Source: Membranipora membranacea
Taxonomy: Eukaryota; Bryozoa; Gymnolaemata; Cheilostomatida; Membraniporidae
Direction: 5' to 3'
DNA: 64,000 bases
Assembly (NCBI GenBank): GCA_914767715.1
Contig: OU612072.1
Coordinates: 1,736,001-1,800,000 of the forward strand
The translations under genes and the position numbers were made by a program. Positions 7,601-62,911 of the stretch are shown here, one piece after another (positions within the stretch are counted from its first letter, which is position 1; each line of letters begins with the position of its first letter). The notes under the pieces were generated by a model that searched no databases, was not told where the DNA came from, and saw only the letters and a program-made list of their open reading frames with translations.

Positions 7601-10600
7601 TGGGACCTCAAAGAGAAGACTGAGACTAGCAGCATGGAGGTGAGTCATAATATATGTGACTAACATAATCCCAGGTGCATTTTTGCAATGGTCCAAATGG
7701 CTAAAATTAATTCAAGTTAACATTTACCGTCTAGCTTACATAGACATACATTACATAGAATCTCACCTCAGCTAGCTAAACTTTACAGATAGTAAACATA
7801 AAGTCTCTCCAAAGTTAGCTCAACTAAACTCAAGCTAACATTTGCGTTATGAAATCATCATTTCTATTCAGGTGTGTACTATAAAACCTTGGATATAATT
7901 TACATATCATGTCTCTCTGACTACTTGTTATAGATCGATGAGGCTCACGGTCCTTGTAGAGCCGTAGTTCAGTCGGGAGAGAATTACATTGTAGGAACAA
8001 CTAAGAACTCTATAATATGTGGAGCTGATATGTCCAGTCCTAATGTCATCACACAGGTTAGTAAAGCTTATCATTCTGGTCAGTACAAACAGCACAAAGC
8101 TGAGCAAGAGCACAATGCTGCTTTACATTGTTGCCTTAAATGGTGAGGTTTAAAAAAGAGATTTTACTTAGGCCTAAAGTAATTTGTACGAGACGTTTGA
8201 GCACTGTCACTTACAGACATATGGTCCTACCATAGACTTAATAATAAACCTAGACAGGACACTATATGGAACATTAGCATTGAGGCACTGAGGCATTTAA
8301 TTGTGGGCGACGTAACGACATTGGAAGGTGTAGAAGCAATGATACTTTCATTGGTTTACTGTCCACAATCCAGGATTTTTGTCATTAACTAGATCAATTT
8401 TGATCGGATTTAAAGTTTGAAAATTACAATAGATTTACCAGCTTGTCCTCAACAGTTTGATACTAATTTTCTGATCGTAAAGCAATTTTCAAATTCAAAA
8501 TCTGGTCAAAATTGATCGAGTTATGAAGAAAAAACCTGGATTATGGACAGCAAATCAACGATAGCAACTTCTACACCTTCCAATGACGTTACGTCGCCCC
8601 ACACTTAGAGGGCAACCAAGGTTTCAAACAACTTCTCATTGATGGCCATTGATTAATAGCAGATCGCACCTTCTGCATGGGGAAAAAGACGAAATATAAT
8701 TCGGATGATTATTCAGCCAGAATTCTTGTGAAACATTTCTTCCATCAGGTACTCAAACTCAGCTAAAAGAGAATACCACATAGCAGTTTCCTGTTCCTGT
8801 TATTATTTAGCCTGTGCTCTATAATTATTACAGCAAAGTCTTCGAACCTGCCCTAAACTGAAGTGTTACCCAGCTTAGAGTCAGCAACTACTTTGAGTTT
8901 CGCATCGCGTAATGCACAAAGCTGATGCTGCCCAGCACATTATTTGCTACCCATTAATGCATTGCTGCGAAACCTTGGTTGCCCTTTAAAGGGCAACCAA
9001 GGTTTCGCAGCAATGCATTAATGGGTAGTAAATAATGTGCTAGTCAGCATCAGCTTTGTGCATTACGCGATGCAAAACTCAAACTAGTTGCTGACTCTAA
9101 GCTGGGTAACACTTCGGTTTAGGGGAGGTTCCAAGACATTGCTGTAATGATGATGGAGCACAGGCTAAATAATAACAGGAACAGGAAACTGCTATGTGGT
9201 ATTCTCTTTTAGCTGAGTTTGAGTGCCTGATGGAAGAAATGTTTCACAAGAATTCTGGCTGAATAATCATCCTAATTAGATTTTGTCTTTTTCCCTCCGC
9301 AGAAGGTGCAATCTGCTATTAATCAATGAGGTCCAATGAGAAGTTGTTTGAAACCCTGGTTGCCCTTTAAGTGCCTCACTTCAGCTGTATATAGTGTCCT
9401 GGCTAGGTTTATTACTGTCGTCTATGGGTCCTACTCAAACCTCCTTGATATTAACATGTCATGTTCCTCCATATCTAACCTAATCTGAACCAAGCTGTTA
9501 TTGAGTAAACATGAGACATGTTTACTCAAGGATTTCAAGAATCTTGAAATCCTTGGTTTACTGTGGAGAAAAATTTCTTGTTTTCCAAAATATTTAATAT
9601 TTCTATGCATGAGCGAACATTCGAGTGGTTAATATGACATCATGATATATTACAGGGTCACTACGGGGAGACATGGGGACTCTGTGAACAAAAGGCAGAG
9701 AATCAATTTATCACATGTGCTTATGATAACCATGTTAGGATGTGGGACGCTGCTGAACACAAAGCATTGTGGGATATCGAGCTGGAGGTAAGTTATAGCT
9801 TGTTTGCTGATTAGTTGTGGTTGAGGCTCGCGACTTAAATTTTGTGCATTTACCAGGCTTTTACTTATTTACACGTTTGTAACGGTATGTGAAAATAACA
9901 TTCCATTGATTGGTACGTAACTCACATAATATAACACCTAGTACGAAAATCAATCTGATGTAACAGCTTCTAAACGTTGGTTTTATGTCATTCAATCTAG
10001 TAGGCTTTTAATTTCTGTGCTTCATTCCTATCCTGACGTAAATTTGTTTCATCTCTCTTCACCTGTAGGAACCTGTACACTGCGTAGCTCTGAACCAGTC
10101 AGGAGATAAGATAGCTGTAGGATCTCGTACTCCTAACTTCTACATCTATAACACAGCAGACCAACAGCAGGTTAACAGTGGATCATGTGGGTCTGAGCAG
10201 ATAGAGTGTGCTGAGTTCTCTCCTGGTAAGACTCTATTAGTATAAATCATTTTCAAACACTATATGGAATATATAAGATCATATATATCTAGGTCCATGT
10301 AATATATATAAGACCATATGATATATATAAGACCATATAATATACATAAGACCATATAATATACATAAGACCATATGATATATATAAGACCATATAATAT
10401 ATATAAGACCATATAATATATATAAGACCATATAATATATATAAGTCCCTATAATATACATAAGACCATATAATATACATAAGACCATATAATATACATA
10501 AGACCATATGATATATATAAGACCATATAATATATATAAGACCATATAATATATATAAGACCATATAATATATACTGGACCGTATCATTTTTTTTTTCTG

Positions 10601-13600
10601 TGATAGCTCATGTTTTTCTCTTACCGATGAAGGATTTTTCCCAGGATTTTCACGTCCTTCATTTTCAATTCACTCACACTCAAATCAGAATTAAAAAAAT
10701 TTATCATTGAAACTTTGAAGAAATGAAGTTAGTGCGCTTGGTTGACTCAAATCAATATAGCATTTCATTACCTCTCTTTATTGAACCCATCCATACCATC
10801 TAACAAGTGATATGTTTTTCTTGAATTATCGTTATCGAGTGGGCTGTTGTGCAAATCCAGCGATGATTTCTTATTTTAGATGGAAGCCATGTTGCCTTTG
10901 GATCCAGAGATAACAGTATATACGTATATAAGATGGATGGCGCTGTGCTGACCTGTCTAGGTGAGTAGCCAGTGTAATTGATCGGTTAAAGTGTTTTATT
11001 ATTCAGCTGACTTTTTTGAATTGTCAGGTATGTATCATTAGCGTAAGAAACTTTTCAGTGGAGGGGAAGATAAGAGATCATCTCTCAGTGATTAATGTGA
11101 CCTGCTACCAGGGAGTTATGTCCCAAACTTGCGTCTGCTACTGGCGGGGGAGTTTGATGAAAGCTCCCTGCTCCTGATACATGATCTGTCCTAATTCGGA
11201 GTTGCTCCCCCTCTGATATCAGCCTGTTCATTATTAGTGGTAATATTGGTGACACTTTATTTGTAGGTAAATGTTCAGGACATACTAGTTTCATCACACA
11301 CATAGATTGGTCTACAGACAGTAGCTATCTAAGAAGTAACTCTGGAGATTATGAGCTTCTCTACTGGGAGGTGCCTTCATGTAAACAGCACACTGATGTA
11401 AGTACTCTCATATACATACACTGATATAAGTACAGCTATCACAGTGTACCGACTTAATTCAGACTTTATAATCCAGAACTCCTGTTAATTCTGACTTGGA
11501 ATATCAGCCCTAACCATAGAGGGGATAACTCTATGGCCCTAACAGCATAAACTCAATTTATTCACGTGCCATTAATCCACACTTTGCTTAATCAGGACAG
11601 CATCCGGTGGTCCCCAGGGGTTTGAATTGAGTGAAATGCACCGTATTTACATGTATAATAGCAAGGAGTAACCCTGTTACTCCTTGGTAATAGTCAAACA
11701 TACATGTTGTATGTGCATTTGTGAGTTGTACGAGATTAAAACTATATGAATTTCAACTCCACACAAGTCCATACTCAAACTTTTGGGATGACTTCTGTAA
11801 AATAAACTTATTAGCAATAGTAACAAGCCAGATGCTTTTGTTTACAGCACATGAAAAAGCTCATGTATCATCTTGCTTAATGATTTGATTTTACATTCCT
11901 TTTGTAGTCATCGGTTGGTATTTACACTCATAATATTAATTTGATTGTATATATTTCACTCGTAGCTAAATATATTAGTTCTTCCTGGCATTTCACAGAG
12001 CGCAGATCTCTGATTTCCCTAGTTAGTTATCGCCAGATTGCAGATTGATCTCCTTGCTTCATTGGTCTGACAAGATTGTGACATCCTATGTCCATAAAAA
12101 TTGGCCACATGAACAAAGTGAGAGACAGCACCATCCCCTCCTCCGCTTTTTTCGCATCAAATTTCTGATTTCTGTCTTGTTTCCTTCAAATCGTAAATGA
12201 ATAAGATTTACTAACTTATTGTGTATTGTGTGTATATGTGAAACGCATTCTCCTCACTGTCAAAGCTTCATCACTCACACCTTATACTTATCGCTGTGTG
12301 TATGTGTGTGCTGAGATTGTTACTGACTAGACCACCTGAATGTCAGATTGATCTACTACTACAAGTGATTATAATTTGCATGTCCTCCATCACAGCCAGC
12401 ATATCAGTTAGTCCTAATGTATAATCATTTCTGTCATTGTTTGTGTGTGATGACCTGTAACTCATCTTATGCTTATCTGAGTATAAACTGTCTGTTGTGA
12501 ACTTAACGATGTCATCGAGCACCACAAGCCTCTCGATTGTCTTTGACATGGAGTGAATATTGCCTTTGGCAATGATATTTTGGTCAGAATGATGTTCTTT
12601 AACCGTAAGTTTGTGATATTTCAGGGAGAATCAATCAGGGATCTGGAGTTTGTTACACAGAACTGTGTCCTCTCCCTAAACACCATCGGTGAGTTAAACA
12701 AACATTATAACCATATAAGTGGGTACATAATCATCAGTCGCTAACTCGCCTTCAGTCCCCCTAACTCGCCTTCAGTCCCCCTAACTAGCCTTCAGTCCCC
12801 CTAACTAGCCCTCAGTCGCTAACTAGCCCTCAGTCCCCCAAGCTTAGCCTTCAGTCACACAATCTTAGCCTTCAATCACACAAGCTTAGCCTTCAGTCCC
12901 TCACTAGCCCTCAGTCACACAATCTTAGCCTCAGTCCCTAACTAGCCCTCAGTCGCTAACTAGCCCTCAGTCCCCCTAACTAGCCTTCAGTCCCTAACTA
13001 GCCCTCAGTCGCTAACTAGCCCTCAGTCCCCCAAGCTTAGCCTCAGTCACACAATCTTAGTCTCCCCTTGACTGACGATATACGTTTGTTGGAAATATGT
13101 CAGTAAAATTTTTGTTAATTGCAATCAATTTGATGGTAAGACCTCTTTCTCAACTCTCACCTACATTAGTTATAATGTACAGTGGTATGGTTTTGTTGAC
13201 AAGCGGTTTACTCTTACAGGTATTTGGCCTTCTGGAGCTGATGGTACTGATGTTAATGGCTGCTGTATGAATGCTGGTCAGAGTCTGGTGGCCAGTGCTG
13301 ATGACTTTGGAAAGGTTAACCTGTATGCCTATCCTAGCCGCACACCACAAGTATGTATACATTTTTGTTACAGCCTACTGAATCATCTCATAGATATGAT
13401 GTAAATTATAAAGATGTCCAAGGTTAAACCGTAATGAAAATTTTTACTCCCACTCTGTCACCAAGACTCTCATAATCTGACTATTGTTGACGCCGAGTAA
13501 ATGTTCTGATGGTGGCCCTTTGTTAGACTGGTCTCACTGAACCGGAGTGGATGGAACTAGAGACCCCACCCCTCCCCCCTGAGTCATCAATGTAATCCAA

Positions 13601-14679: not shown

Positions 14680-16445
14680 TCAAACACCAGATGCGATCTG
14701 TTTATTGACTTTGTCTAACACTTTTTGGTCTAGTGAGCTTCGTCTGAAGTGTACATATAAATAAGAGATAATTCCTATACCAAACCAAACTCCCTCATGG
14801 ACCCAGAAACTTCTCTGCTTCTCGTGTGCTGGCTCCTCACAACTACAAACGGAAAACGTTACATTGATCACACACTGAACTGTATACATGATTAGATGAG
14901 TTTACCCTGACACGAGTACTGTACTGAACGCAGTTTTCAATAGATGATGCCTGGGGTTGGTAATTATAATATGATTCGGATCTTACAACCTTCTTTGCAA
15001 ATCGCATAAAAGTAATCGAACGGTGAAGTTCCAATTGCCATAAATAATGCAAAAGTTGTCTGATCATGAATAAGTTGTGAGCAGACAACTCTATGCGAGT
15101 ATTTAAAAATACACACTCTTTCGAAGTTGAATATATAATAAATACTATTGTATAACATAATGAACATACCTGACAGTAATAACTTGCGTATCAGTGCATT
15201 TCACCTGAGCAATAAAACCTGTCTTTTCACACGCTGCTAACCCACTCTGTAAAACAACATTCCGGAATATAATACTTGGCTAGTAATAATATGGTGTCAT
15301 CAATGTTATGGTCATTTATCTGTGACCAGCAAGAAAGACCGACTTACAATCAATACATTACTGAGTTCCCACATAGCCAATAGCATTGTATCACTGCATA
15401 TAGCCATTGCACAATAAGCTAGACTACCATATTTATATATATATATACTTACTTCAAGCTGCAGCGCTGTACATTTTTTACATTTATAATGTTCTAAAGT
15501 ACTGTTATCTATAAGCGGACAAGTAGTCGGTTCTATTGTGTGATTCTCAGTATCACTTGCACCAGTATAACCAGCATCTGAAAATAACAGTAATATCAGT
15601 GAATCCTTCTTAATTCAATGACTTACAAAATGATGTCAGTTAAAGATTTAACTTAAAAATTGGTTTATCACAGATTTAATTCATCAACCGCGTCATAATA
15701 ACAATAAAAGTTCTCTTTTGTGCAGCATGTTCTACCCCGTGTTGTTTAGCCGAGGAGTTAGACTAACTCCTTGGTTTAGCTTTATCACACTATTGAAACA
15801 TGAAAAATAATGACAGCTTTCTTGGAGCTCTGAAGTGTATGCGGCTTTGTTAGTGATAATAATAGATAAATAACAAAACATCATCATCATGTACGACCTC
15901 ACTCTGATTCGTTCTATTCCCTCACCTGGTTTAGATTTACCGATATGTTTGTTTTCTGGCTCATACTTTGTCTCTATAACAACGCTTATGATTGTCACCC
16001 TAGAAATAATTAACAAGTTAACAAATTACACGTAGCTTACTGTAGGCTCTTCGGTCGGCTCATAAAGTTAAAGTTTCGATCCTATAACTTGGGTACTGGA
16101 GAAAGATGTATAGTGATACTTTTTAAAGTAACCAAAAACTAATTTCATATATTGGAATTTACCAATAAAAGTTTGGTAAGCTGTGTCGGAGAGTGAGAAC
16201 CAGGCAAATAAATGGTTTGAACATGGCAAAGTAAGTAGCCTGTTTTAAGGTACGCAGCACATACCTTTGGAAAGGTCTCTCAAGAACAAGTACTATCATT
16301 GATAGCTAAAAGTTAATCAATAAGCAGATTGTGAAGTAGAAGGCTTACGATCAGTAGGCCTACTTACATTCCTAAAAAAATGATGGTGGCAACCATCCTC
16401 CGAACAGTACAGAATTCTATCATCGCTGCAGTATGAAGTGCACAC
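14680..16445 (-). CDS. JTB: JTB-like small membrane protein
   Basis: Homologue of the jumping translocation breakpoint protein, a type I membrane protein linked in vertebrates to mitochondria and cytokinesis. Exons, 5' to 3': 16445-16368 (ATG 16423-16421), 15999-15926, 15577-15453, 15246-15170, 14842-14680. All phases fit and give 164 residues. In order: a hydrophobic N-terminal signal (about 10-27), a cysteine-rich ectodomain (TTCPLI, YKCKKCT, ACEKTGFIAQVKC, SCEEP) matching the spacing of the human C-x-PTGYVEKITC region, the family motif EKQRSFWVHEG at 118-128, a membrane segment (about 129-141) and a basic tail (LDQKVLDKVNKQI) matching the human LDRKALEKVRKQI. The 5' end of the first exon looks like an acceptor, so an untranslated exon probably lies upstream. 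It is divergent from SPATA6 and easy to miss because the exons are tiny. Confidence 0.88.
15751..15773. mobile_element. Micro-hairpin with perfect 7-bp target duplication
   Basis: 23-bp unit with arms CGAGGAGTTAG and CTAACTCCTTG (one mismatch) around a single base. It is flanked by GTTTAGC at 15744-15750 and 15774-15780. It lies in a JTB intron and is closely related to the 11662 and 62766 copies. Confidence 0.8.
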
Positions 16446-20500: not shown

Positions 20501-23154
20501 CCATGCTGGTTATGTAAGGTCTGTTTAGTTTATTATCAGATTCAATATTACAGGATAATGATAATGTGATAATAACTTGGGTAAAATTTTTTGTCATTGT
20601 ACGACATAAAAAATTAAATAAGTTGCGACGTCTCTTCTCAGTGCAACATCGTCTTGGTCCAAAGGTGCTGACTGTGTGACAAGATGTTTGTGAGGTGTTA
20701 TTGAAAATACAAATCAAGTGACTTTGTCATATCGTCTGCAGACTGGAACAAAGGCTATTGGACTTTTCATTAATCAGTACCATTTGATTGGAAAACGCAG
20801 CAAAACCTCAATCAGAGTCTAAAATTAGCCTGTTGGCCGTACTTACCCTAACAACTAAAATCTTTTGTTTACTTAGACGGACGAGTCGATGATTCACAGG
20901 AAGGTTGGTACACCAAACTCACGAGGTAAGAAGGTGAAGAAGAGAACTCAGTCAGCTCAGGCTTCCGTTATCAGCAGCAGCAGAGCAGGAACACCAATCA
21001 GACATTGTGATAGAGTAAGTCTTACTTAACTTGTCTCAATAAATGAGCAGCCAAGTGGTTCCTCAAAATTGGCGGAACTAAAATTCTAATTTATTCCAAA
21101 TGAGTGTGGTACAGGAAATCCAAAGTTAAAAACTAAGATGTAGGGGGGGGGGGGAACTAAATGTATTTTGGTCATCTGAAACCCCTACCACAAAATTTGG
21201 GTTTAGTTACTCAACTTGCAAATGATATAATATATCATTTGCAAGTTATGTATATAACTCAGCTATGTATATTATACATGGCTGAGATAAAATAGGTTAT
21301 ATTTGGGTTTGAGTTGTGCTCTCACTGACGTTGAGAAAGCAACTCTAAGTCATCTTATCACCAAGTTTGCAACTTCGTCTGGTCCAGGGAGGGTAGTCAC
21401 CCTCCCTGGTCTGGGCTATCACCTGTTCTTATCTGAGTTTATTCCAATTATTAAGCCACTCACTTCTAAGGTAGACACTTAGTATAGACACATCTGTTTC
21501 TTCTCCATTCCATGGTTTTCTTGTTTGTAACAACAGTATTCAGGCTGCTCTGAGTCGGAGATTATAAATGTTACGTTTGATTGCAGGTGCTGAGATCTGC
21601 TGCCTCCGCCCCCTATTATTCTGACGAAGGTAAGTGGAATGTTTGATACACATTAGTTGCATCAATCAGTAGAGTCTGTGTGACAAACATGTAATTTTTA
21701 TTGTCAAATACTTGAATATGGGATTACCGTCCCATGATTTGACAAATTTAGTACGATATACAACTATATCAATCGAGATTTAGTTATATCACATAAGTTT
21801 CAGGTGTCCTGCAGCCCCCCCCCCCCTCCTGTAATCACCTTTGCTCTTTACAAATGAAGAAAAGTATCAATGGGGACATAATTACAAACCCGTACTGAAT
21901 TCTACCAATCTCTTCTCAATCTAATTTTGAAAATGATATGACATGTAGAGTCTGATGTGGAGTACACAGGAAGTTACCGCAGGCGACAGACTAGATCAGT
22001 TCCCGAATCATATGATTTACCTGCAAGACGTTCAGTTAGTCCAACATTCTACAGGCGAACCTTACGTGAGAGGTGGGTCAAGGTTGTTAGTGCACATATT
22101 ATATGTAACAGACAGACAGACAGACAGTAGATACTATCTACGGGGGGGGGGGGACTATTTGAGTAGTATACTCGGTCAAATGCATCTCCACTTTTTATAT
22201 GAAATGTCACAAGGGATATTTGCTTGATTGACACAACTTCTAAGAACGCCAGCCATTGAAATGCGTCCTACAATGATTGACCATATAGTGACTTTTGGTC
22301 ATTGTACATGTCATCTGATTGAAAGGAAAATGATCAGGTTTGAGTAAAAGTTTAGGCTTCATGGAATCTATGGACACATTTTTGTTTTCTTCATGTTTAG
22401 CTGCGGTTTTGATACAGCGGTATGTTTTATTCTCTTACGTTGATATCTTGGTTTTATTATATTCTATAAGAAGTTGGTAAAGGGAGTCTCCCAGTACAGT
22501 ATGATTTATATCAGTTATTCGTTGTTTCATTGTTTGAGTTGTCCGATCCTGTATTCAAAGTACTCGGTACAAATTTAGGTACAAAGATCTCAGCTCAGTT
22601 GATGAGTGATGCTAGCCTAGTTTAGTATTGTTAGGCTGCACAGTCAGTTATTCTGAAGATATTATACTTGTAGGTATCTGGACAATGAGACAATAGATGA
22701 GGAATGGAGAAGACGTCGTGTAGAGAGGGCTGAGAGGGCACTGGCTTCTTCTCTCGCTACAGTATGTTACACTTTACTGAATAAATACCATTGATGACAT
22801 ATTCTAACTAACTGTCCTCTAGTGAAAGTGATGAGGTTCTGAACAAAAACATTTCATCCACTTACATGAAGATTGAGCTGTAAGGAAATGCAAAGCAGAT
22901 CTTATATGAAGTCAATGTATTGCTTTGGATAAGGATATCAATTCGAAGCAAATGAGGTTTTTGAGTTCTAGTCTGATTGATCATGGAAATCTTACTAAGA
23001 CGTTGACATAAAAAAAGTGCTTTTATTGGTGGGATTAGCTAATTATCAATAATACATGTATTTTTTTCTACTATAGAGATCATTGCTGAGTTACAGCGAT
23101 TCACTGGATGATCTTGCGGATGAGTTTGATCGCTCACGACTCCTCGGTTACTGA
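17544..23154 (+). CDS. SPATA6: SPATA6 (spermatogenesis-associated protein 6)
   Basis: In mammals SPATA6 is needed to build the sperm head-tail coupling apparatus, so a role in flagellated sperm or basal bodies is likely. Exons: 17544-17591, 18634-18820, 18980-19155, 19375-19470, 20226-20420, 20877-21014, 21587-21629, 21949-22072, 22674-22761, 23077-23154. They sum to 1173 nt, or 390 residues. The start ATG opens MPRKAQKLTLDLNVNK, which aligns with the mammalian start, and the next exon continues VSCPGVWLRSNNEIYLTICL. The N-terminal SPATA6 domain spans about residues 1-125 (FPLVVMERFKFEKIF, then FELVQLAPDS). The rest is a basic Ser/Arg-rich tail including RPPFIIKK, which matches the mammalian KPPFVIRH. 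It is shorter than the human protein (about 490), mainly in the tail. An AATAAA lies about 640 nt downstream. Confidence 0.92.
17851..18174. mobile_element. Possible MITE with about 20-bp inverted ends
   Basis: ATTACAAAATAAAGTACAGT at 17851 is mirrored by ACTGTACTTTATTTTGTAAT near 18154-18174. The interior lacks a recognisable gene, and the open frames here match nothing I know. It lies in SPATA6 intron 1. Confidence 0.5.
19524..20008. mobile_element. Long-armed MITE, copy 1 (TA-flanked)
   Basis: Termini TAGACAGTTTTCTG and CAGAAAACTGTCTA. Inverted arms of about 190 bp carry TCCTCTCTCCAGTTTGGTAC, ACGCCGCATAGGAAAAACC and a GATTTTTGATTCAGA block. The ends and possible TA target suggest a Tc1/mariner-type non-autonomous element. 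It lies in a SPATA6 intron. The second copy is at 61430-61940. Confidence 0.88.
21213..21247. repeat. Perfect 35-bp palindrome
   Basis: Arms AACTTGCAAATGATATA and TATATCATTTGCAAGTT around one base, in a SPATA6 intron. A second hairpin (CTCAGCTATGTATA with TATACATGGCTGAG, one mismatch) follows at about 21258-21286. No 7-bp duplication is seen. Confidence 0.7.
21384..21408. mobile_element. Micro-hairpin, CAGGGAGGGT type
   Basis: Arms CAGGGAGGGT and ACCCTCCCTG around AGTC. The flanks GTCTGGT (21377-21383) and GTCTGGG (21409-21415) match at 6 of 7 positions. It shares its arm sequence with the hairpin at 45706. It lies in a SPATA6 intron. Confidence 0.7.
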
Positions 23155-24580: not shown

Positions 24581-27500
24581 ATGGCGGCTTCTGCTTCTCA
24601 TGAATTGGAGATAGAAGAGGATTCAGATAACTTAGTTGAATGTCAGACATGCTGTGAGATAGAGGGGTATCTTCTAAACCCCAAACTGCTACCATGTGGG
24701 CATATATTCTGTGTGCCCTGTATTACTGATCATCAAAAAGACCCAGCGCAGATTATTTGCTCCAAATGCAAGTAAGTCGTACTTTGTATGCCTGTTTTGC
24801 TGTTACTAACGGGACCCTAAATAAATTCTTGAAGCTGGCAGAGGATTATGTAACACGCAGTCAAGTTAGTGTGCGAGCTTAAAGCCTACACACTCACTCG
24901 ACAGCTTATAGGATATGGCTGAGGGTGTCTCTTTCAAGAGAAGTACTTGCAGGAAACTATCTGCAGTTGTTTTGCTACACCACACTCTGAAGCTAAATGT
25001 GCTTTCTACTGTTGGTATATGATTACTGCATGGTACATCGTCAATGTGCATATTTGTAGGAATAGTACCCAAACCAGTCTAGATGAATTAGAATCAGCTT
25101 TAAAAGGGATGAAGACATTCTGCGACACTTGCACAAAGATTGAGGGAGAAATGTTCATGACAGCTAATGTTTACTGCCCTCAATGTGATATGAAGTATTG
25201 TAACAGGCATCACAAGGTACTTACGCACGATAAATCTGAGATAAAAGGCTTGACAACGATGTGGGTACGACAACAATACAAAGATTGTTATCTGAGCATA
25301 AATTTTTATGCTATTGCAGATTGTTGTCAAGCTCAATCATGTCGCAATTTTTGAAAAAGATAACAAACTAAGTTGCCAAAATTAGTTCCAACTAGTGATG
25401 GCAATGTCTCGGTCCCGGCCTTGTGAGACTTGTCTCGTCAAGACACTGTCTCGTCTCGACGAGACAGACCCTCATGTCAAGACTTGTTCATTATAAACAT
25501 TGTTATGATGATTACCTATTAGGCCATACGTACAGTCAACACGTAACCATACTGTATTATGATGTATTCTCGTGACTTATGTAATATCAAAATCAATAAA
25601 GTCATTTCTGTACTATATTCATTTTTCAGACGCCAATGAAGTGACAGTTTTCCAATTTTATCGGCATCGATATATGTCTTGGTCTCAATTCTCTTGAATC
25701 TTTTGACAGTGTGAAATAACACATATTTTTGGCAGTTTTTCGATAAAAGCTTATATGAAAGAAAATGAGGCCAATTATTTTTTTGGAAAAACCAAACAAG
25801 ATAATCTGCAGTGTAAATGCAGCCAAACACAAGGGATTTGTTACAAGTCAGCTACACTCCTCAACGGTTCTTGTAAAGTGGGGGAGGGGGGTCAGTGAAT
25901 TCATCTGTGACGCAGGTTGATGTCAGAATGAAAATAACAATAAACATGTTTACTATATTAGGTAACTTAAAACACAATTGGTAATCAATTCTGATGTTTC
26001 ATGTAGTCCATTCATGCATGAGCCGATGATCGGTGACAGTTGTGCGGTGCATCTCATTGGTAAAGCCCACATAAAGTAAATCTGAATCTGAACCAGTTAG
26101 TGGTTACAATTTAACCAAGAACTCTCTTGATTTAACCATGTTGGTTTGTTATGTAGGTTCATGACTCACTCAATAGTCATAACATGATGTCAATAAAAGA
26201 GTATCTCAGATCGTCGTTAGCTGAGGAGCTGCGCTACTGTACTGAACACAAATCAGAGATATACTGCTTAGGATGTGAGAAGTGCTATGTGATGTTCTGT
26301 TCTGAATGTGTCAATACCCCAACCTGTTGCAGCATTGGTAATGAAAATGTCTTCACTCTTATCAACAAATAGTCCAGTGAAGTGTGGTCTGTTGTGCTAA
26401 ATCTTACATCAATTTCAAAGTGTGAATTTCACAAATGTTGCAGCTGGATGGCTTTGTGGCATCAATAATTTTGTATGTCAAACACATCCGGATGGGTATT
26501 TGGCAGCTGTTGATTGCAAAATAGTCATGCGGACAGGTTCTTATCACAGAAAACTGATCTGGATAGGTTTGTTGACCGGATGATGAGCGTCTAAAACTAT
26601 CCGTCTCTGTTACAAACCCACTGGCCTCTATGAAATCCATATCCCGATGCGTTTATTGTGCAACCAGATGCCTATTGGCATTCGGTGGTTGCAACAAGTG
26701 GCTGCCAAATAGGCTGGGTTCTCATCGCAGCATGGTCTAGGCTCACTATGTTTCTTCTATTTGATCAAATATCACAAATAGTCTGGATGAGCTTGTATAC
26801 TTGGGAATGTTGCAAAAGTTAGATATCGAGGCACTGTGATACCCTAAATTTGTAATATATTTCGTCTGCAGTTCTAAGAAAGCAAACTTGTTCTAGGGTT
26901 CCACCTCAATTCACCATTGCGTTATAGGCATCTTTAGCGTTTCATGTGACATTCTTTGTATACTTGATGTGCAGGTGAAGGCCACAAAATCATTTCGCTG
27001 AAGAAACTTGCAGAAAAAGTGAAAGCTTCTGTTGAGCCTCAGAAGGCCAAAGTGGAAGACAAGCTTGATGAGGTGTCAGCTGTGGTAAAGGAAGCCACAA
27101 TATTATTATCAGAATGGGACACGGATACTCAACATGGAGTGAGGCTTCTAAATCAGACCAGCGCACAGCAGGTAGGCGTAGACCTCGATAATAGATAGGA
27201 GTGAATGTAACTTTAATCAACATCATTATTCTCAGACATTGTGGATATGACCAAAGACACTAAATAACTTGATCATATCCATACACATACATTATTATAA
27301 CTTGCAGCTTCTGGAGATCAATGAGAAGTATGACAGCTTGAAGAAGGAGTATATGGACAGCAGAGAGGCTGATAAAGAGAGGATATCGGATTTCATTGCA
27401 GAGGAAGCTGGAGTGATTCAGGCTGAGTACTTGAAACAGCTGAAGGTTCTCCGTGCGGACCTCTCATATAAACATCCAGTAAGACTAGCCTACAAAATTA

Positions 27501-30097: not shown

Positions 30098-30749
30098 AAG
30101 TTATCTGCCTTTACCTTGTAATAAGACATTTAATATTGGGCAGTCAAATGGTTGATGTTTGACCATTAGTTATGAAAGCAGGTACGCAGACACTCATCTT
30201 TACAACTAAACTTCAACTTCTCTGTCAATAAAATAATGTATATACTAAATAATCAAAGCATGCTGTTGGGCATGATATGATGCCCCCTATAATTGTAATA
30301 ATTGTTCAAAGGGAAAATTGTGGTCACTCTATGTAAGAAACATGGTATAACCACTGATATATATTCAATCAATGGGTATAACCAATTTATCTACAAAAAA
30401 CAATAGCTTTCAAGACCAAGTATAATCATAGCTTATAATCATAGTTATGCTTTGAAGATGATTTAAAAGCACTTGATGCTGGTGCTCTCATATTTTTGCT
30501 GAGTATTGGTAAAAAAAAAAGTAATGTGGGTGTGACATAAACAAAATAGAACCGCAGCAGTCAGTTTAAAAGGGCAGAAAATAGCTCCTCTTTGGTAAAG
30601 TAAAAATCTGTTTTTCTTTCAACTCTGTATCAGTGTTTGGTTGCAAATGACAAAAAAACATTCACAATGGTGCATTTAGCTCATTTATGCTGTTGGTTAA
30701 TGTATGAATTCTAGTCTAGTCCAGTCTTAAAGCTGGTAATAGAAAAAAG
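30098..30749. other. Convergent 3' spacer
   Basis: 3' UTR of the TRIM-like gene (AATAAA 30237-30242), then AT-rich sequence to the stop of the minus-strand gene at 30750. No exon seen. Confidence 0.45.
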
Positions 30750-36829: not shown

Positions 36830-36916
36830 ACTAGTCGAATACTAATTGTACATATCACCAGCCATTCTATTTATTATAAAGGGAATGATGTTGGAATGAG
36901 GCAAACTGAATGTAAC

Positions 36917-36943
36917 CAAGGACTAAGTTAGACTCCTTGATTG
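36917..36943. mobile_element. Degenerate micro-hairpin
   Basis: CAAGGACTAAGTTAGACTCCTTG plus four bases, flanked by ATGTAAC at 36910-36916 and 36944-36950. It has the same termini as the family, but the stem is imperfect. Confidence 0.5.
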
Positions 36944-37010
36944 ATGTAACGAGCTCCTGCTTGTCAACACATGCCATTTGTAGGTCGAGAAAGTCAAGTG
37001 GTCGTGTGCC

Positions 37011-37581: not shown

Positions 37582-37619
37582 CAAGGAGTTAGAGTAGAGG
37601 GAACTAACTCCAACTCCTT
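37582..37619. mobile_element. Micro-hairpin with extra internal bases
   Basis: CAAGGAGTTAGAGTAG on the left and CTAACTCCAACTCCTTA on the right form a partly paired stem related to the 15751 unit. The flanking repeats are weak. Confidence 0.45.
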
Positions 37620-39295
37620 ACATCAATCATGATTTCATGTACACTTCTTGAGTGTTTTTTGGGGTGGTTGATACTGGACATTGGCAAAGTAAGGCATGAT
37701 GATCAGGTATGTCTCAGGGGTAGCCTGTCTTGACAAGCTTTGTTCGGGGGGGGGGGGGGGTGGGGGGTGAGGCCAATGAACTCAACCTAGTTCATTGGAC
37801 TGGTTTAGTTCATTGGTGAGGCCATCTAATTTGTGTTGTGGTTTACTTACTATATTATATATACATATATATTATGCTGTCTTGACAAGCTTAGAGAGGT
37901 GCAAACTACAACAAAGATTGCCAAAACAGGCTAATATGCTATATGACAGCTAAAATAATTATATATGTATTATACTTTGACTTTTATTTATAGAATTTTT
38001 TGTTTATAAATCAAAAATGGGAAAATTGTAATAGCTGATTTGATCAGTTCTTAACATTGTGACCTGATTGGCCACACATTTTAATGTGCGAGAACACAAA
38101 TCCTCACAGAACCATATTATTTGCTTGAGTTGACCAAGGATAGTTTTGTCTTGACAAGCTTTGTAGGGAGAGGGGGAGAACCTATCAAGACAGCTATCTA
38201 CAGGGGAAATCTCAGGGGTTGTTCAGTGGTTCATGAGCCCAGGACCCAATTTGGAACGGTCAGTCACCGGAATGAGTTAACTACCTGGTTTGGCTGTCCA
38301 AGGCCATTGACATTAGCTGACAAGGGATAAAATCACCGATAATGATAAGCCACATGATCAAAATCTTCAACCATCATGATGCGCAAATAATACTCTGATT
38401 GTCATGTCATGTAACCTTGGTGTTAAAATAGTCCCAAGCTCTCTGCAGGTGCGCTGCGCCCCAATTTCAGTTATGAACAGCCAGGTGAAGAAGGAGGTTA
38501 AAAACGTGTTAGGTTTAATGGAATCAAGTGCTTCACATGTTCACTGAGAGAAGAAAGCCTTTGAAGAGTGTTAGCATTTCTAACTAATTTATAAAAACCA
38601 CCATATCTTCAAACAAATATGCTTGTTCGACTCAAAAACTAAACTAATAGAATATTCTAAGTGTTTTATTTTTTGTATTCTGCAGATTTTTCACTTGTTT
38701 ATACAACTCTCACCAAGGAAAACACAATCATTTGGAGTTATACCCTCCTATAAATACAAAACAAAATGGAAGTCAGCAGTGTTTGATTGCTGCGAGGAGC
38801 TGCATGACTGTCCCGTACCATGTCATGGTGGGAATAATTGCTTCTCCTGTACCCTCTACGGTAGTCACACAACTCTGATGAAATACGTAGATGTGTAAAA
38901 ACGCAACAAAAACGTTCTTGGACATAATTACTTGGCACCACACTGATTAAGTGACAATTAAATGACAAAAGAAAACAGCAAAAAGAACCAGAAAAGATCA
39001 TGAAGAGAGATTTGAAAAAACTACCATTCAAAAATGGTATGGAAGCATTCATTTGGACTTGAAATTACTGCGATGTCTGACCATGTAAAGGCTCATTATA
39101 ATCTTTAGTGTAACAGTAAGTCACTGTGTGGGTGATCGAGCATTAATTTCAATTTGAGTGTAAAAAAACATACACTCATGTTTCAGCTCGACCCTGAGAC
39201 GTTATCACTATAACAAGCCTTGTTAGGCTAATTCTGTGGTTGGATACCAACCAAACCAACTATCCAGAAGTGTCAGATATTATACATCATTCAGA

Positions 39296-46643
<7,348 letters not shown>

Positions 46644-49600
46644 GATTTCCAAGTGCAATGCTTTTATAACGCTCCTCCGATGTGTAAGTCAATCAGGCAG
46701 AGATAAGGTCTTTCACAGCTGTTTATTTGTCTACAGATACCACAATCACTCCTACCACTGTTTACTCTGTGCCTCAGAGTCAACTTATAATAATTAGTTA
46801 TACTGATGATGTTAAGTGGATTAGCCAGGGTTGAGGTTAATTCAGTCTAGCTGAGACTGGATGCATACCCGCTGTATCTGGTGTGCTCTGTGAGTGATGT
46901 CCAAGGTACACTGCGATATCCTGATCTGCTTAGTGTTACACTGTTGATGAGAGCGTGTTATCTGTTGTTGATGTGTACTGATGTCCAAAGAAAGGTCAAC
47001 CTCCGTCAATAATACAATATAAAGCTGAGTAAACCACAAGTCGGAGAGTAGATGACTGGCACTTCTCCAGGCTTGACACTTTTCCCCGATTATTGAAAGC
47101 ACACAAGAGGCCAATGTACTCTCTATACCCTTACACCAGTTATATTTATCCTCCAGTGGTTTCAAAGTTTGTTGAGCACAAAAATAATCCTGTATACTTT
47201 TAGCCAAGACTGAGAGGCTTGTGCTGCAGCAATCAGCTGACTAGAGCTGCAGCATGCTCACCTTATAACTTATACTACAGCGGCAGCGGCAGCAGCGAGT
47301 TAAACTATAAAATCAATACATTCATAATGAAGTACTTTGCTACGCCTATCAATTGTTAATCGATAACTCCTTATAGTCTATATAGCTTATATTATGTAGC
47401 CGGTACTGCATACAAACGAATATAAGAAGGTTTCATATGTGCCTTTCCAGGCAGCGCACACACATGGTTTAGAGTATAGGAACAGTTATACATCAAGAAG
47501 GTGATATCACACTTCAGGTATAACATGGTTTTTTTCCTCTTACATCTACAGGGCAGAATGTTAAACGCCACATTTCACCTCATCACATCACACATCTTCT
47601 CATTACACGGTCTCTTCACACCTCGTATTTTTTTATTTTAAAACATCTGTACTGAGGGTAATTTTCTACTGAGGGTTATTTTGCGCTGAACCTAACTAAT
47701 GAAACATACATACAAAATAACTATGTAGCTGAATTGAACCCTCTATGGTCACTATTTTGAAGTAATGAAATTAGAAGAATATGACCGTTTATGTTACCCA
47801 GCATCAACTCTGGCGTCAGTACCTCTCCAAATGAATGGGATAAAGTTAATTTTCTCCTGCCCTCACCACATCTGGTCTAACATTGTATATAGAACGGAAT
47901 TGGTTAAATATTGCAAGTTCATTGCCTTCATGCCTTCATCTGAACACAGTTACCAGTCCAACTGCCCCAGAGTTCAACTTCCTTCATTTTACCTCAGCAA
48001 CAACACAATTGTATTGTATTGCATATGGTTAGCAAAATTAAAGTTATTAAACCTGAAACAATCAGCCCTGAATTACAACACTCAACAACCTCTTTGCAAT
48101 CATAGGCAATACCTATAATATTATCAAACACATTATAGGATTATGAAAACAATAGACTGTGTTTGACATATTGTGTAATCAATGTTGTGGTATATCGGAT
48201 AGATTGTACTTTGGACTCAAAAATATTAGTAAACGACTCAACAGCTTCGTTAAGGCGTTTTGTGATATAGGAAGGAACAAAGCACCACTATAAATATCAA
48301 ATCAAAGCTAAGACTCTAGGGAATAAAAATATATTGGTATTAAACATTTTAAATTGGGGGGCGCACCCAATTCGGAGGGGAGAAGAGGGGAAAACTACAA
48401 ATTTGTGAAAAATTCGCCTCTTCACATTACACATCACACTAAGTTTTCCTGTAACAAAGAATGTAATCTGCAGAATTATTACAGATCACAACATAGTGGG
48501 TGACATAAAAATAGTTGGAAAAACTTTCTCTGATTTTTATACTGCCGGATATTTCAAGGGCACCAAAAAATTAGTAATATTAATTAGTAACGTTCCATGT
48601 TTCCATCAGTGAAAAAAACCAAATTCAAGATCCAACAAAAATTTTCATCCTGTATGGTACTGCACTGCCTGAAATGGTGGTGCGAGCCTATGCATTGAAA
48701 AAATAAAAATCCCATTGTCATGTTGCCTGCCAGATACCAATATATATATTTATCATCTATATATATATCGCCGAACAAATTCATAAATTTGATAGAGGAG
48801 TAATTTTTTAGTTATATTAGATTACACTGTGACCCTTATTGGTCACACTGACACCAACTATCACAATCACACCGGCTAACAGCCCAGTAAAATAACTGAT
48901 TTTTTTATCATCAATCCCATCAGGGAGTTTTGTCTCAAACTCTCTGTTCTCATGCTACCAGGAATACCTGATGCAGATGCTAAATTGACACATCTCCAAT
49001 CATAATTACATTCTTTCACTATTGCAATGCTTAAATTTTTTGTATTGGTTGTTCATCAATGTAAACCCACTGCAAACCAACAATAGCGAGGATAACTCCC
49101 AGATCTTGAAGGTAAAAACTTAGCAGGCAGTGGTTGAATCAGGGAGGTTGGGAGGAGCTTGCATTAACACAAATTGACCAATCAGAGCTCAGCACTTGTT
49201 TTCAATCATGGGTACTGGACTGAAGATATAAAGATTTTTTTCAGTCTGACATGATATTTAGTAAGTGGTTATCTCACTCATATCTCACCCTCCTGGTTGA
49301 ATGTCTGTCACATTCATCGAAGATCAAAGATGTAGAATCTAAATAAGTTCCGTCCTGGAGCCATTCAGAACCATGTGCTTTTCTTTCAGGCTTCCACGAG
49401 TAAAAGAAGGATTATAATTTTACAAAACCCATTTATAATAATTGAAACGTTGAATATGAATATTATATCATAAGAAAAAAAGGCTGATTCATAGGACATT
49501 GTAGTATGTATGCTATTTACATGTTGTGTACATTGGTCACATCTATAAGGCGCTGAAAACCAATGGCTGTAAGTCCAATATATGGCAGTTACATATTTAC

Positions 49601-52900: not shown

Positions 52901-55900
52901 TGACTAACTAGGACATGAGATCCACATGTATTAGGTTACAATCAACAAACAAATAACCTTAAAATGTTACACTTATTTGCGCTGAGATTACAGATTTATT
53001 TGTATTGCACTGCGAAATTGGATATAATAAAAATTCCGTTCCTATCATTGAAAAAAGATTTTCTGCATTTTGCAGTATTTGCCTTGACCAAAAATTGTCC
53101 TTCAGTGGACTAGAGCAGGGGTGCCCAACCTTTTCATTGAGCAGGCCGCATCCACATATTGCAATGTCCCTTGGTCCAGCAACCTCGCCATAAATCAAAC
53201 ATTCATATATGGGTGTGCAGTATTTTCATCTCTGCAGTGAGGAATTTATTTATTAGAGCTCACTCAAATGCAATAGTTGGGGAATTCCAAAATACTGTTA
53301 CTAGATGTAGAGCGGTCTATTATTGTACAAATGAGGAATGTAATAAATATAGGGGTGAAATTTGTTTTCGCGGCTATGCGATTTTTTCGGACGGGTCGGG
53401 GGCCGCATAAAATTGGGTCAGGGGGCCACTCTTTGGGCAGCCCTGGACTTGAGTGTTTATACTGTGACAATATGTTAAATCTCATAAGTCATATGAATGA
53501 GCTAAGCTCATAGTATACTCACCGAGCCTAGAGGCGACCAGATGTGTAACATTATTCTCAACGTTGATTTGTATTTTAGCACCGAGAGCTATAGCTATAT
53601 GATATGCTGTACTGTGATAGAGTGATATCGACTGAGGAAATAATCCGCTGAACGCCAGCACACATCCTTCTAGAACCTACATCATACAAAGTGAACAAGT
53701 TTCTCTGTGAGCCATCATTATGTTTAGTATGATTATACTGGGTTTGATACAAGATTGGTCAAATCACAAGCCACATCCTGAAGTGTGGGCGGCCAAATAT
53801 TTGATGAGAGGCCTCAATTTCTGTGCCAGCCTGTTTCCTGTTTGCACGCAGGTCGGAGGACACCTCTGGGGCCAACCAAACCCCAGAAGTTGATGGACTG
53901 CAGTGGGATTTGAACCCACGACCTTTAACATTCGCATGCTGAAGCCAACTAAGCCACCTCCAACTCCTGGTTTTATTCAGTTAAGAGTTATTTCACGCTA
54001 TTAATGGATTAATCTCATTTTTGATGAGCAAAATTTTGTTTGATATACGAGTTGTCTTCCCTAAGAGATGAAAGGCACTGCAGGTATTAAAATAACACTA
54101 ATAATTATTAGGCAGCAAGTTTCTAACAGAAAAGTAAAACAAAGGTTTTATACTGAGAGACTACAGACCTGTTTCCTGTGCGATTTGATGACAGATGCGA
54201 CTTTTTGAGGTTCCGGGTCTTTCAGTGCGTTATCTAGTGGTAGTTTACCAATACTAGGATCACTCTTATCAGATTTGTCCCTCCTGTAGAACTCATGGTG
54301 TAAATCAACGAGAATGTTGGTTAGATTCTACAAACATAGATTATATATCTCACTGTTTTGAGGGATGGGATCAATCGATGTTACTGTGCTGAAAAGGCCT
54401 AAAGAGGTTGGTTGACTAAATAAGCAAATGAAGATCTTCAGGAAAAATAGCCATAAATCTATCCATGCTCGTCAAACCAGAACGAAAAGTCTACAAGTGA
54501 TCCCCCCTACCTGTAGATAAGTATCATCATCGGTCCACTCGACTTCTACTTCCTCCTTAGACTCCGCCTCCTCCTCCACTGTCTCAGTCCTGTCCTCAGT
54601 AGGCTGATTCTCTTTATCTGTACTGTCTTCTTCATCGTTAGCCTTACCGTCTTCAGTGACTGTAGTATCAGCTGTCTCAGCCTCGGTTATCTCCGAGTTA
54701 TTTGTTATATTATTTGTTTCAGTTTGTTCTGAATTGACACCAGATTCTGTTGATGTTTCACCAGGCTTACTGGTACTGTCCTCTGCTGATGAATCTCCAG
54801 TTTGTGTTGTTGGGTCCGAGTTTGAGGAATTAGCTTTTTCCTCAGTAGAGCTATTGTCATCAGATTGATGGATGCTTTTCTCAGCTGTCAGCTTAGAGTT
54901 AGAAGAAGATGTGACGTCAGTCTGCCTCTCTTTACTATCACAGTTTGTTACCTCCGTACTGTCTGTGGACTCACCACAGCCTGACTTGTGTTTCTTCTCC
55001 TGCGGTTGACTCTCTGGCCCATCGTTGTTTATGCACGAGTCACTCTCATCTAAACTTCTTTTAGATGAGTTTTTGGCACTGTCTACAGACTCATTGTCCT
55101 TTGTGTCAGACGGAGTAGTATCAGCAATGTTTGAAGTTTTATCGCCATCTGACTGTTGATTACTACTTTCGGTAGAGTTATTTTCTGAGGATTCATCTGT
55201 TTTGGAGTCTGATGACATTTGATTTGGCGCTGCAGCCTTAAGTTTGCTCGGATCATTTATATCACCAGTTGCTGAAACATATCTAGTCATTATAAGCCAT
55301 GTGTACAAACTGTGAAGGGAATGACTGATAACCTGCTAATATACTCTATTGACGAGTGTGTGAAAAATGCTCGTGATGCTGGAAACACATTACCCTGATT
55401 TTCTCTTAGTCACATCAACATGATATATATATTCCCACGGTTATAGGACCACACAGTAATAGTGTTAATCATTACTCATCAGCACTATAACCTCCATACC
55501 CAGCAGTAGCCTCAGTACCATTCAGAGAGGAGATAATAATTATGATTTAGTATTGACCTTTAAAGAATTTATACGGCAGTACAGGTATGAGATTAGGACT
55601 ATAATTCCATACATCCTCTCTATCATCTATAATAGCCACCATATCATCTCCACATGGGAACAGTGATCTGTAATATAGATAGGGCACAAAAGATTTATTA
55701 TGAATGCAAATATTTGACTTCTCTTAGGATAATTCTACGGTTTAGGAGGAGTTTAATATTTTTTCACATTATCGTGTGAGATTGATTCTATGGTTGTTTT
55801 TGGGTGTACTTATTGAGTAGCTATGTCAGCTAAACTCAAGAGATAGACTGAACAAGGGTAACCTTAATTGTTGGTTACTTTAGAAGGGTACAGCGTTTGC

Positions 55901-61900: not shown

Positions 61901-62911
61901 TCCAAATTGAGGGATAAATAAGAGCTCAGAAAACTGTCTATTATTGAAAGATAGGTCTAGAGACAAAATACATTTCTTATGCTTTACCCTAAATGGTCCT
62001 AAATTCATTTTACTCCACACATCTGACCTACCTTTCATCACGTAGATCTTTTCCACATTCCGCACACAAATCCTTGATGACTATGTTATGACTGCAGCCT
62101 GCTAGTTTCAGTAGTTGTTGACTGAAAAGTGAGACCAAATGAGATCGGTTAAACCAGGATAACTTTTGGATATAAATGAAGTTTAAATGCCAAGAAGAAA
62201 TGTTTTCATGTTGCTATTGCTAATAACTAACTACTAAGGATTTTTACCATACTTCTTGACAATCCCATCCGGGCACCCACCAATATTGGCTTGGGTGAAA
62301 TGGACAAGCAGCGCAACAAACCATGTCTCCTTCGCTGTGATTCCTATCAAAGTTGCACAACAGATCTTAACATCCATGACGAGCGTGCCCTTATAGTGTA
62401 GCAGTTGTAACATGTAACCATAGGAGTGGACTGGTTTAAGACTTGTGATCTGCCTCTGCCTCTTTGATGAAAAGACTTGCCGGACAAGGGTATAGGACGC
62501 CGCTCGAGTACCATGGGTCCGAGTAGCTCTACTCTAGAGGGGACAGCCTTCTCCACAATGAAGGCTTAGACTTACTCGTGGTTACTGGATCAGTTTTTTT
62601 ACGGCAGCGTGGCTTTGCATTTGCATAGTAGCAGCACACAAAATAAAAGTCTTGTGTTTTCTATACAGTCTGCATGACATTGTGCATATTGCAACGCCAT
62701 CAGTTAACCACCTGGTAATGACAGTTCTATTTGAAATCGGTCGCGGAGTAGTATAGTGGTTATATCAAGGAGTAACAGACAGGGTGTTACTCGTTGGTTA
62801 TATGATCTATGACACGGACCGATTACCAATAGACGAGCCCGAAACATCGCTGGAACCTTCACCAGATGAAGCGATTAGTCTTCAAGTATCAAGTAAGTAT
62901 AAAGTCAACAG

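Follow-up and report, generated by a model that had tools for sequence, protein, structure and literature searches.

The 64-kb window analysed here, that is, the whole stretch at positions 1736001 to 1800000 of contig C8 in the 339,339,785-base, 18-contig assembly of the bryozoan Membranipora membranacea, has a guanine-plus-cytosine content of 38.3%. It contains EML-type exons (HELP and beta-propeller), which make it animal-like, and three bacterial-type frames of at least 200 amino acids (aa). Neither Rfam, at its gathering threshold, nor a tRNA search returned anything in the window. It also carries short hairpins placed between direct repeats of 7 or 8 bp, for which an original prediction made from the letters alone had offered either minute mobile elements or a repair process that copies hairpins. 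As argued below, these hairpins are very probably excision footprints (scars) of P-superfamily cut-and-paste transposons, and not minute mobile elements.

All ten hairpins listed in that prediction were found in the window sequence; no strand is assigned to these or to the other inserts of this paragraph. The 29-bp scar CAAGGATTTCAAGAATCTTGAAATCCTTG at 9527-9555 (site 9520..9562) has GTTTACT on both sides, and a hairpin elsewhere in the genome (L007:2829, flanks GCTTTAT) shares the first 10 nt of its arm. Flush and perfect 7-bp flanks were also observed at 15751-15773 (site 15744..15780; scar CGAGGAGTTAGACTAACTCCTTG of the CAAGGAGTTA family, flanks GTTTAGC), 45706-45738 (site 45699..45745; scar CAGGGAGGGTGGGAG-GTG-CTCCCACCCTCCCTG, flanks CCTACAC) and 62766-62796 (site 62759..62803; scar CAAGGAGTAACAGACAGGGTGTTACTCGTTG, flanks GTTATAT). 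These are four of the five perfect 7-bp flanks that had been claimed. The fifth, listed at 11514, is a 21-bp scar of P-element type, CATAGAGGGGATAACTCTATG, at 11515-11535 (site 11507..11543), with a flush 8-bp repeat, GCCCTAAC, on both sides. A match at 6 of 7 positions was seen for the scar CAAGGAGTAACCCTGTTACTCCTTG at 11662-11686 (site 11655..11693; ATAATAG/GTAATAG), and the hairpin CAGGGAGGGTAGTCACCCTCCCTG of the CAGGGAGGG family at 21385-21408 (site 21377..21415) has a 6-bp flank match, GTCTGG, at offset ends only. The site at 36917 had been counted among the decayed hairpins, but a perfect repeat, ATGTAAC, surrounds its 27-bp insert, CAAGGACTAAGTTAGACTCCTTGATTG, which is asymmetric at the right end (36917-36943; site 36910..36950). 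The hairpin at 37582..37621 is a complex and decayed member of the CAAGGAGTTA family for which no flank duplication was recognised by eye, and the decayed hairpin CAGGGAGTTTTGTCTCAAACTCTCTG at 48921..48946 has two flank mismatches. Three inserts with perfect flanks were newly found: the 156-bp element at 49140-49295 that is described below, the 14-bp CAAGAACTCTCTTG with inverted ends at 26116-26129 (site 26109..26136; ATTTAAC), and a complex 42-bp insert, CAATGAACT...AGTTCATTG, at 37774-37815 (site 37767..37822; GTGAGGC), with inverted ends and two occurrences of the motif of its right end. As separate observations, a 23-bp segment, CACTGATATATATTCAATCAATG, at 30352-30374 has perfect 8-bp copies of GGTATAAC on either side, and the surroundings of the 62766 scar (62735-62810) resemble by eye a tRNA in its 5' portion (GTAGTATAGTGGTTA), with no ARAGORN or Rfam call.

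The association of hairpins with 7-bp flanks is not a coincidence, as had been proposed. It was assessed in 274,129 bases, comprising the window and loci L001-L024, which were selected for having a hairpin, with the flanks disregarded; 27 such hairpins were counted, versus none in 10 Markov controls. Exact flank lengths for the CA...TG hairpins of this 274-kb set were 4 bp (1), 5 bp (2), 6 bp (1), 7 bp (27), 8 bp (2) and 10 bp (1), and a single hairpin with other ends had a 7-bp flank. Preselected hairpins make up 16 of the 27; the 11 others include three from the window, two of them listed earlier. A strict scan of the window, with tandem repeats masked (CA...TG inserts of 10 to 60 bp, arms of at least 5, exact 7-bp flanks), gave 5 inserts, whereas the 40 Markov controls averaged 0.2 and none exceeded 1. 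The counts were 6 versus 1.6 (maximum 5) with one flank mismatch permitted and 16 versus 5.6 (maximum 13) with two; 6-bp flanks with arms of at least 6 were absent from the masked window. A CA...TG insert at 39114 with perfect 7-bp flanks has no inverted ends and may be due to chance, given that controls averaged 1.6 in the separate scan that yielded it.

The same structures are dispersed over the genome. A search for CAAGGAGTTA-N(0-12)-TAACTCCTTG, with exact 10-nt arms, found 353 places versus 1 for the reversed pattern used as control. Prokaryote contigs (257 Gb) together with viral contigs hold 27 places of the hairpin pattern, none of which has a 7-bp flank at one mismatch or fewer, versus 21 of 24 CAAGGAGTTA hairpins read with their flanks in the animal genome. 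In those 24 the repeat is exact over 7 bp in 16, matches at 6 of 7 in 5 and is poorer in 3, one of which (L014) lies within another scar; of 20 CATAGAG hairpins fetched, 14 have exact 8-bp flanks, 4 match at 7 of 8 and 2 at fewer. It was never longer than 7 bp in the first set or 8 bp in the second, and both target copies are kept in the 16 and the 14 exact cases, respectively. A transposase with a 7-bp stagger had been suggested; the flanks do act as true target-site duplications, but in some families they measure 8 bp. In a set of 28 distinct 7-bp candidate sites, a few of which have weak arms and may be chance, the target shows T at -3, no G at -1, T at 1 and A at 5, with 1.11 complementary pairs versus 0.79 in random sites, a value matched by 33 of 2000 samples. 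The targets thus show a palindromic preference, in keeping with those of the P-superfamily element Galileo.

The transposons from which the 8-bp scars derive can be recognised in this genome. There are at least 102 matches to PF21788 (P-type GTP-binding domain) and at least 134 to PF21787, and none in 14 control genomes. Ten P loci were read, in five pairs, and both ends were found in four of them, belonging to three families and each with an exact 8-bp duplication. These elements measure 5688 bp (L050:161-5848; CATAGAGTTATTATATACTCTAGAGTGGAC at both ends, duplication GTTGGTGT), 4933 bp (L051:733-5665 and L052:501-5433; ends CATAGACCTACTAATAATAAACCTAGACAG, duplications GTTAGATC and TGCTGATC, respectively) and 5972 bp (contig C2, assembled from L055 and L027; ends CATAGAGTTATCCCCCTAGAGC, with AGGAAAAC on both sides). 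At L053 and L054 one boundary only was seen. Every delimited element has CATAGA... ends. The frame of L051 contains THAP, Tnp_P_element, RNaseH_N and GBD domains; that of L027 has the last three, THAP being absent from the frame tested, and the single frame tested of L050 has RNaseH_N and GBD. P-type transposase domains, inverted repeats starting with CA and an 8-bp duplication, the marks of the P superfamily, are therefore all present in the CATAGAG/CATAGAC parents. Larger elements sharing the hairpin ends, which the original prediction had anticipated, thus exist for the families with CATAGA ends, while no CAAGGAG parent was found in the sequence read. In the 21-bp scar at 11515-11535, with its 8-bp duplication, 7 nt from the left tip and 15 nt from the right tip of the 5972-bp element type are joined, with one base shared.

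The window itself contains a composite element of 1196 bp at 8231-9426 (site 8223..9434; no strand assigned), with the 8-bp duplication GGTCCTAC, ends CATAGACTTAATAATAAACCTAGACAG and no frame of at least 200 aa. Its ends, close to those of the 4933-bp elements, suggest that it is a P-element relative. Within it lies a spacerless palindrome (8602-9373) with 386-nt arms that are 93% complementary; the nested set holds further inverted repeats with arms of 32 and 81 nt (8305-8599 is listed in the set), and a piece resembling the centre of the palindrome recurs at L058:944-1115. A 160-bp segment at L009:8248-8407, with CATAGAGTTATTATATA ends and the exact 8-bp duplication TTTACAAC, is likely a small P-type parent. 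An open P transposase frame of 762 aa occurs in a 6.9-kb unit present in two places (L025/L026; C3:34637000-34642000 and C11:7306500-7311500), which are 99.4% identical over 6.4 kb and have four inward-facing CAAGGAGT motifs around the frame.

Having these parents at hand, the length of transposon end retained in each scar can be measured. The pattern CATAGAGTTA-N(0-30)-CTCTATG gave 269 forward and 311 reverse rows in the genome, palindromes being counted on both strands, and 1 and 1 for the control. Of the 132 ends at 66 listed places on contig C1 and part of C2, 56 could be assigned to the parent CATAGAGTTATTATATACTCTAG, 22 to the parent CATAGAGTTATCCCCCT and 54 to neither. The matches of the 56 ends extend over 12 nt (3 ends), 13 (11), 14 (5), 15 (5), 16 (3), 17 (18), 19 (6) and 22 nt (5). 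For this parent, which reads CATAGAGTTATTATATA followed by CTCTAG, 29 of the 32 ends that match 16 nt retain base 17 as well, and 11 of those 29 retain base 18; the five 22-nt matches are explained if CTCTATG of the opposite end follows base 17. The longest match to the CATAGAGTTATCCCCCT parent is 18 nt (22 ends). The cut therefore probably lies at about 17 nt for the CATAGAGTTATTATATA parent, as in Drosophila. In families with parents found, the scars appear to consist mostly of the outermost 17 nt or so, or less, of each parent end, rejoined. The 66 junctions comprise 18 with microhomology, 4 blunt and 44 with filler bases, although one or more of these places may be chance.

This drop near 17 nt also bears on whether the hairpins are P elements shrunk in place by internal deletion through aborted gap repair, a process after which the retained lengths would be expected to vary widely. 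Derivatives of this kind do seem to occur, for example the 156-bp element at 49140-49295, but intermediates of 50 to 9000 bp with exact 7-bp flanks were not found in a scan of 344 kb for 8 identical terminal bases. That scan misses the 156-bp element, which has a one-base gap in its right end and was detected by a one-ended search. With the drop seen for one parent, we regard internal deletion as a very improbable origin of the hairpins.

Direct observations comprise the hairpins, the duplication lengths specific to each family, elements in which an 8-bp duplication goes with P transposase domains, and, for one parent, the sharp fall in retained bases after 17 nt; the cut and repair biochemistry that we infer for this genome would proceed as follows. 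Insertion at a roughly palindromic target would duplicate 7 bp (in the CAAGGAG, CAAGGAT, CAATGAACT and CAGGGAGG families, hereafter the 7-bp families) or 8 bp (CATAGAG/CATAGAC). On excision, the P-type transposase would cut one strand at the border of the element and its partner some 17 nt further in, which would leave on each flank a 3' tail equal to the tip of the inverted repeat. P transposase is described in passages of PMC7776569 and PMC2895639 as cutting one strand 17 nt inside, which leaves 17-nt 3' inverted-repeat tails on the donor flanks. End joining would then unite the tails, either bluntly, across a short microhomology or with the addition of filler bases. The product would be two target copies enclosing at most about 17 nt from the left tip followed by at most about 17 nt from the right tip; the corresponding order, target copy, joined tails and target copy, appears for end joining after P excision in Table 1 of PMC2895639. 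Because the tips are inverted repeats, such a scar would fold as a hairpin, and since each end-joined hop would leave one scar, scars can outnumber elements. On this evidence the CATAGAG/CATAGAC scars are almost certainly P excision footprints.

The 7-bp families resemble them in construction, and P-type parents may be presumed for them too. Tips are common within families (CAAGGAGTTARAG, CAAGGAGTAAC, CAAGGATTTC, CAATGAACT, CACAGAGTAAGG and CAGGGAGGGT), and the middles differ, taking many forms, some of them recurring, without the identity that an ultra-small mobile element would require. Of 20 sites chosen by the presence of CAAGGAGTTARAGACTYV, 14 are products of 18 to 27 bp with a 7-bp flank at one mismatch or fewer, 2 are doubtful and 4 lack such a flank. 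Twelve of the 14 products are asymmetric (21 or 18 bp), and three (L029-L031) have common flanks, which makes them one duplicated event. Junctions of 21 CAAGGAGTTAR scars, read under the inferred tip, comprise 9 with microhomology, 5 blunt and 7 with filler. The tip CAAGGAGTTARAGACTY, predicted beforehand, was found at 184 and 176 places, with none in the control. Many of these are scars of 21 bp in which the opposite end supplies the final bases, so that the counts alone do not prove a 17-nt limit.

These observations leave little room for hairpins of 14 to 33 bp moved in trans by a transposase, as had been put forward. Their perfect target duplications, the recurrence of identical 27-bp forms (e.g., CAAGGAGTTAAAG, A or T, CTTTAACTCCTTG) and the failure to find an intact CAAGGAG parent in the sequence read would suit such elements. 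However, their middles vary inside families, the recurrent 27-bp form would be expected from two CAAGGAGTTARAGACTY tails with a short overlap, and the CATAGAG set has parents, to one of which the retained length falls off after 17 nt. It is also hard to see asymmetric remnants of 18 to 21 bp as mobile units; L037 and L044 are asymmetric, one end being matched over no more than 4 nt, yet have perfect duplications. That the hairpins themselves move is therefore highly unlikely. The other proposal, that hairpins are copied into staggered breaks during repair, agrees with their position between direct repeats, but leaves unexplained why the arms equal transposon tips and why the duplication is 7 or 8 bp according to family; its probability is close to nil.

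In the sequence read, no parent was found for the CAATGAACT and CAAGGAG families. A window search for elements longer than 60 bp by 7-bp duplication and inverted repeat passed none. Five weak candidates longer than 45 bp in the 274 kb were rejected: L017:2626-2842, L018:3783-8741, L021:1549-1610 and positions 53750-54038 of the window were judged to be chance, their end matches being short or of low complexity, and L014:4929-4976 holds a scar. The latter is a scar within a scar, 48 bp flanked by CTCTAAG with a complete 26-bp hairpin inside; elsewhere (C1:24037743-24037796) two whole CAAGGAGTTA hairpins stand head to tail with zero bases between them. L058 and L059, two CAAGGAGTTARAGACTY sites that lack a nearby duplication, were dismissed as parents, with no partner end within about 2.5 kb. 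Intact parents with the CAAGGAGTTARAGACTYV tip are rare or gone among the first 100 of its 360 places, the search pattern excluding T at base 18. One conceivable, though improbable, explanation is a nearly complete purge of the CAAGGAG families, which have hundreds of scars, by a P-type transposase now serving the host, for example that of the open 762-aa frame, which would have excised them throughout the genome, with the sites closed by end joining.

One family links elements and scar-like hairpins. The 156-bp element at 49140-49295 (site 49133..49302; + strand) has the left end CAGGGAGGTTGGGAGG, the right end CTCACCCTCCTG and the 7-bp duplication GTTGAAT. It resembles a member, shortened by internal deletion, of a longer family; 40 scored matches to the element occur genome-wide, and 33 of them begin at base 1-3 of the element. 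The two 15-nt arms CAGGGAGGGTGGGAG of the hairpin at 45706-45738 are the first 15 nt of this dispersed family, and four copies read begin with CAGGGAGGGTGGGAGAGG or ...GGGG exactly where the flanks diverge (191 bases were fetched for them; the opposite ends lie beyond). One family therefore has elements, a 7-bp duplication in one copy and scar-like hairpins.

Another possibility is that the 7-bp families are footprints of another, unrecognised cut-and-paste superfamily with a long internal stagger. No P transposase was tied to a 7-bp family in this genome, and CAGGG ends are like those of hAT elements. Elements with CAG-starting inverted repeats and 8-bp duplications are also present, perfect at L015:3720-4239 and L015:6284-7388 and with one mismatch at L018:7987-8326 and L022:2751-3791; they are probably hAT-like. 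Yet the 7-bp scars match the 8-bp P-type ones in build and in their CA...TG ends, and both types show the palindromic target preference. Moreover, hAT excision leaves palindromes of the flanks and is not known to leave some 15 nt of each element end. We therefore consider another superfamily unlikely and P-type parents for the 7-bp families quite probable.

Several results weigh against the interpretation of the hairpins as P-type footprints. In the one genome at hand neither an empty nor an occupied allele was seen, and a comparison of 41 joined sites with the fetched sequence gave no paralogous empty site. No coding parent for any 7-bp family was found in 344 kb or at the 10 P loci read, out of at least 134 P matches, no inward-facing pair within 10 kb was seen by eye at the first 100 of 360 CAAGGAGTTARAGACTYV places, and for the CAGGGAGG elements the 7-bp duplication comes from one copy, the window's own. 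The two copies of the 762-aa P frame have no recognisable pair of terminal inverted repeats and duplication. Matches past 17 nt occur in 11 of the 56 CATAGAGTTATTATATA ends, the six of 19 nt being without explanation, and 15 of the 66 scars of that set exceed 34 bp. The filler share, 44 of 66, exceeds the insertion class in the Drosophila table of PMC2895639. In the CATAGACCTA family (188 and 193 genome rows versus 2 and 0 in the control), retained lengths are 18 to 21 nt, not 17, in 26 of 32 ends from 30 readable scars, although its AAT repeats permit other registers. This suggests that 17 nt is not universal, unless the true parent has a different number of AAT repeats.

If the hairpins are scars, a single assembly serves as a natural assay of excision and repair, in which the retained ends report the cut position of the transposase of each P family and the junctions report the end-joining route of the germ line. 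The genome would thus retain a readable record of former element sites and of the manner of cutting. The data suggest a stagger of 17 nt in one family and one of perhaps about 20 nt in another, so that its conservation becomes directly testable. More generally, one class of the short hairpins found in animal genomes may consist of transposon scars and not of elements or regulatory structures. Apart from these, the window holds a 41-bp tandem unit in 77 copies with 93% matches (57097-60253).

No description of natural P-type footprints as a genome-scale class of hairpins was found among the open-access titles and abstracts listed. Repetitive hairpin elements of sponge mitochondria (PMC2800124) are also repeated hairpins, but mitochondrial. 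Zebrafish Pdre2/THAP9, in the passages of PMC10983969, likewise has a P-type transposase, CAT... ends, an 8-bp duplication and imprecise excision; it differs in its 13-bp terminal repeats and in the larger flanking deletions reported with zfTHAP9 in S2 cells. Galileo, of the P superfamily, shares 7-bp duplications and a palindromic target (consensus GTANTAC), with 8-bp duplications in three D. willistoni copies; the likeness concerns duplication and target, not the ends, and footprints are not described in the passages concerned (PMC2775673, PMC4168063). Cleavage with a long stagger and 17-nt 3' tails is described for the Drosophila P transposase in part of PMC7776569. A close comparison is with the excision products of Drosophila P{wa} as given in portions of PMC2895639. 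Most of these, like the scars here, keep both target copies, and in the Drosophila products the two 17-nt tails are joined between them. Their junctions show short microhomology, blunt joins or insertions of 1 to 15 nt, and many are inverted repeats. A class with long microhomology (PMC2895639, same portions), in which the tails are largely removed along with part of a target copy, would be missed by the present search. The Drosophila products are laboratory ones, obtained in spn-A flies from one element with an 8-bp duplication (PMC2895639, as above), whereas the bryozoan scars are natural, occur at hundreds of places for a single pattern and include several 7-bp families.

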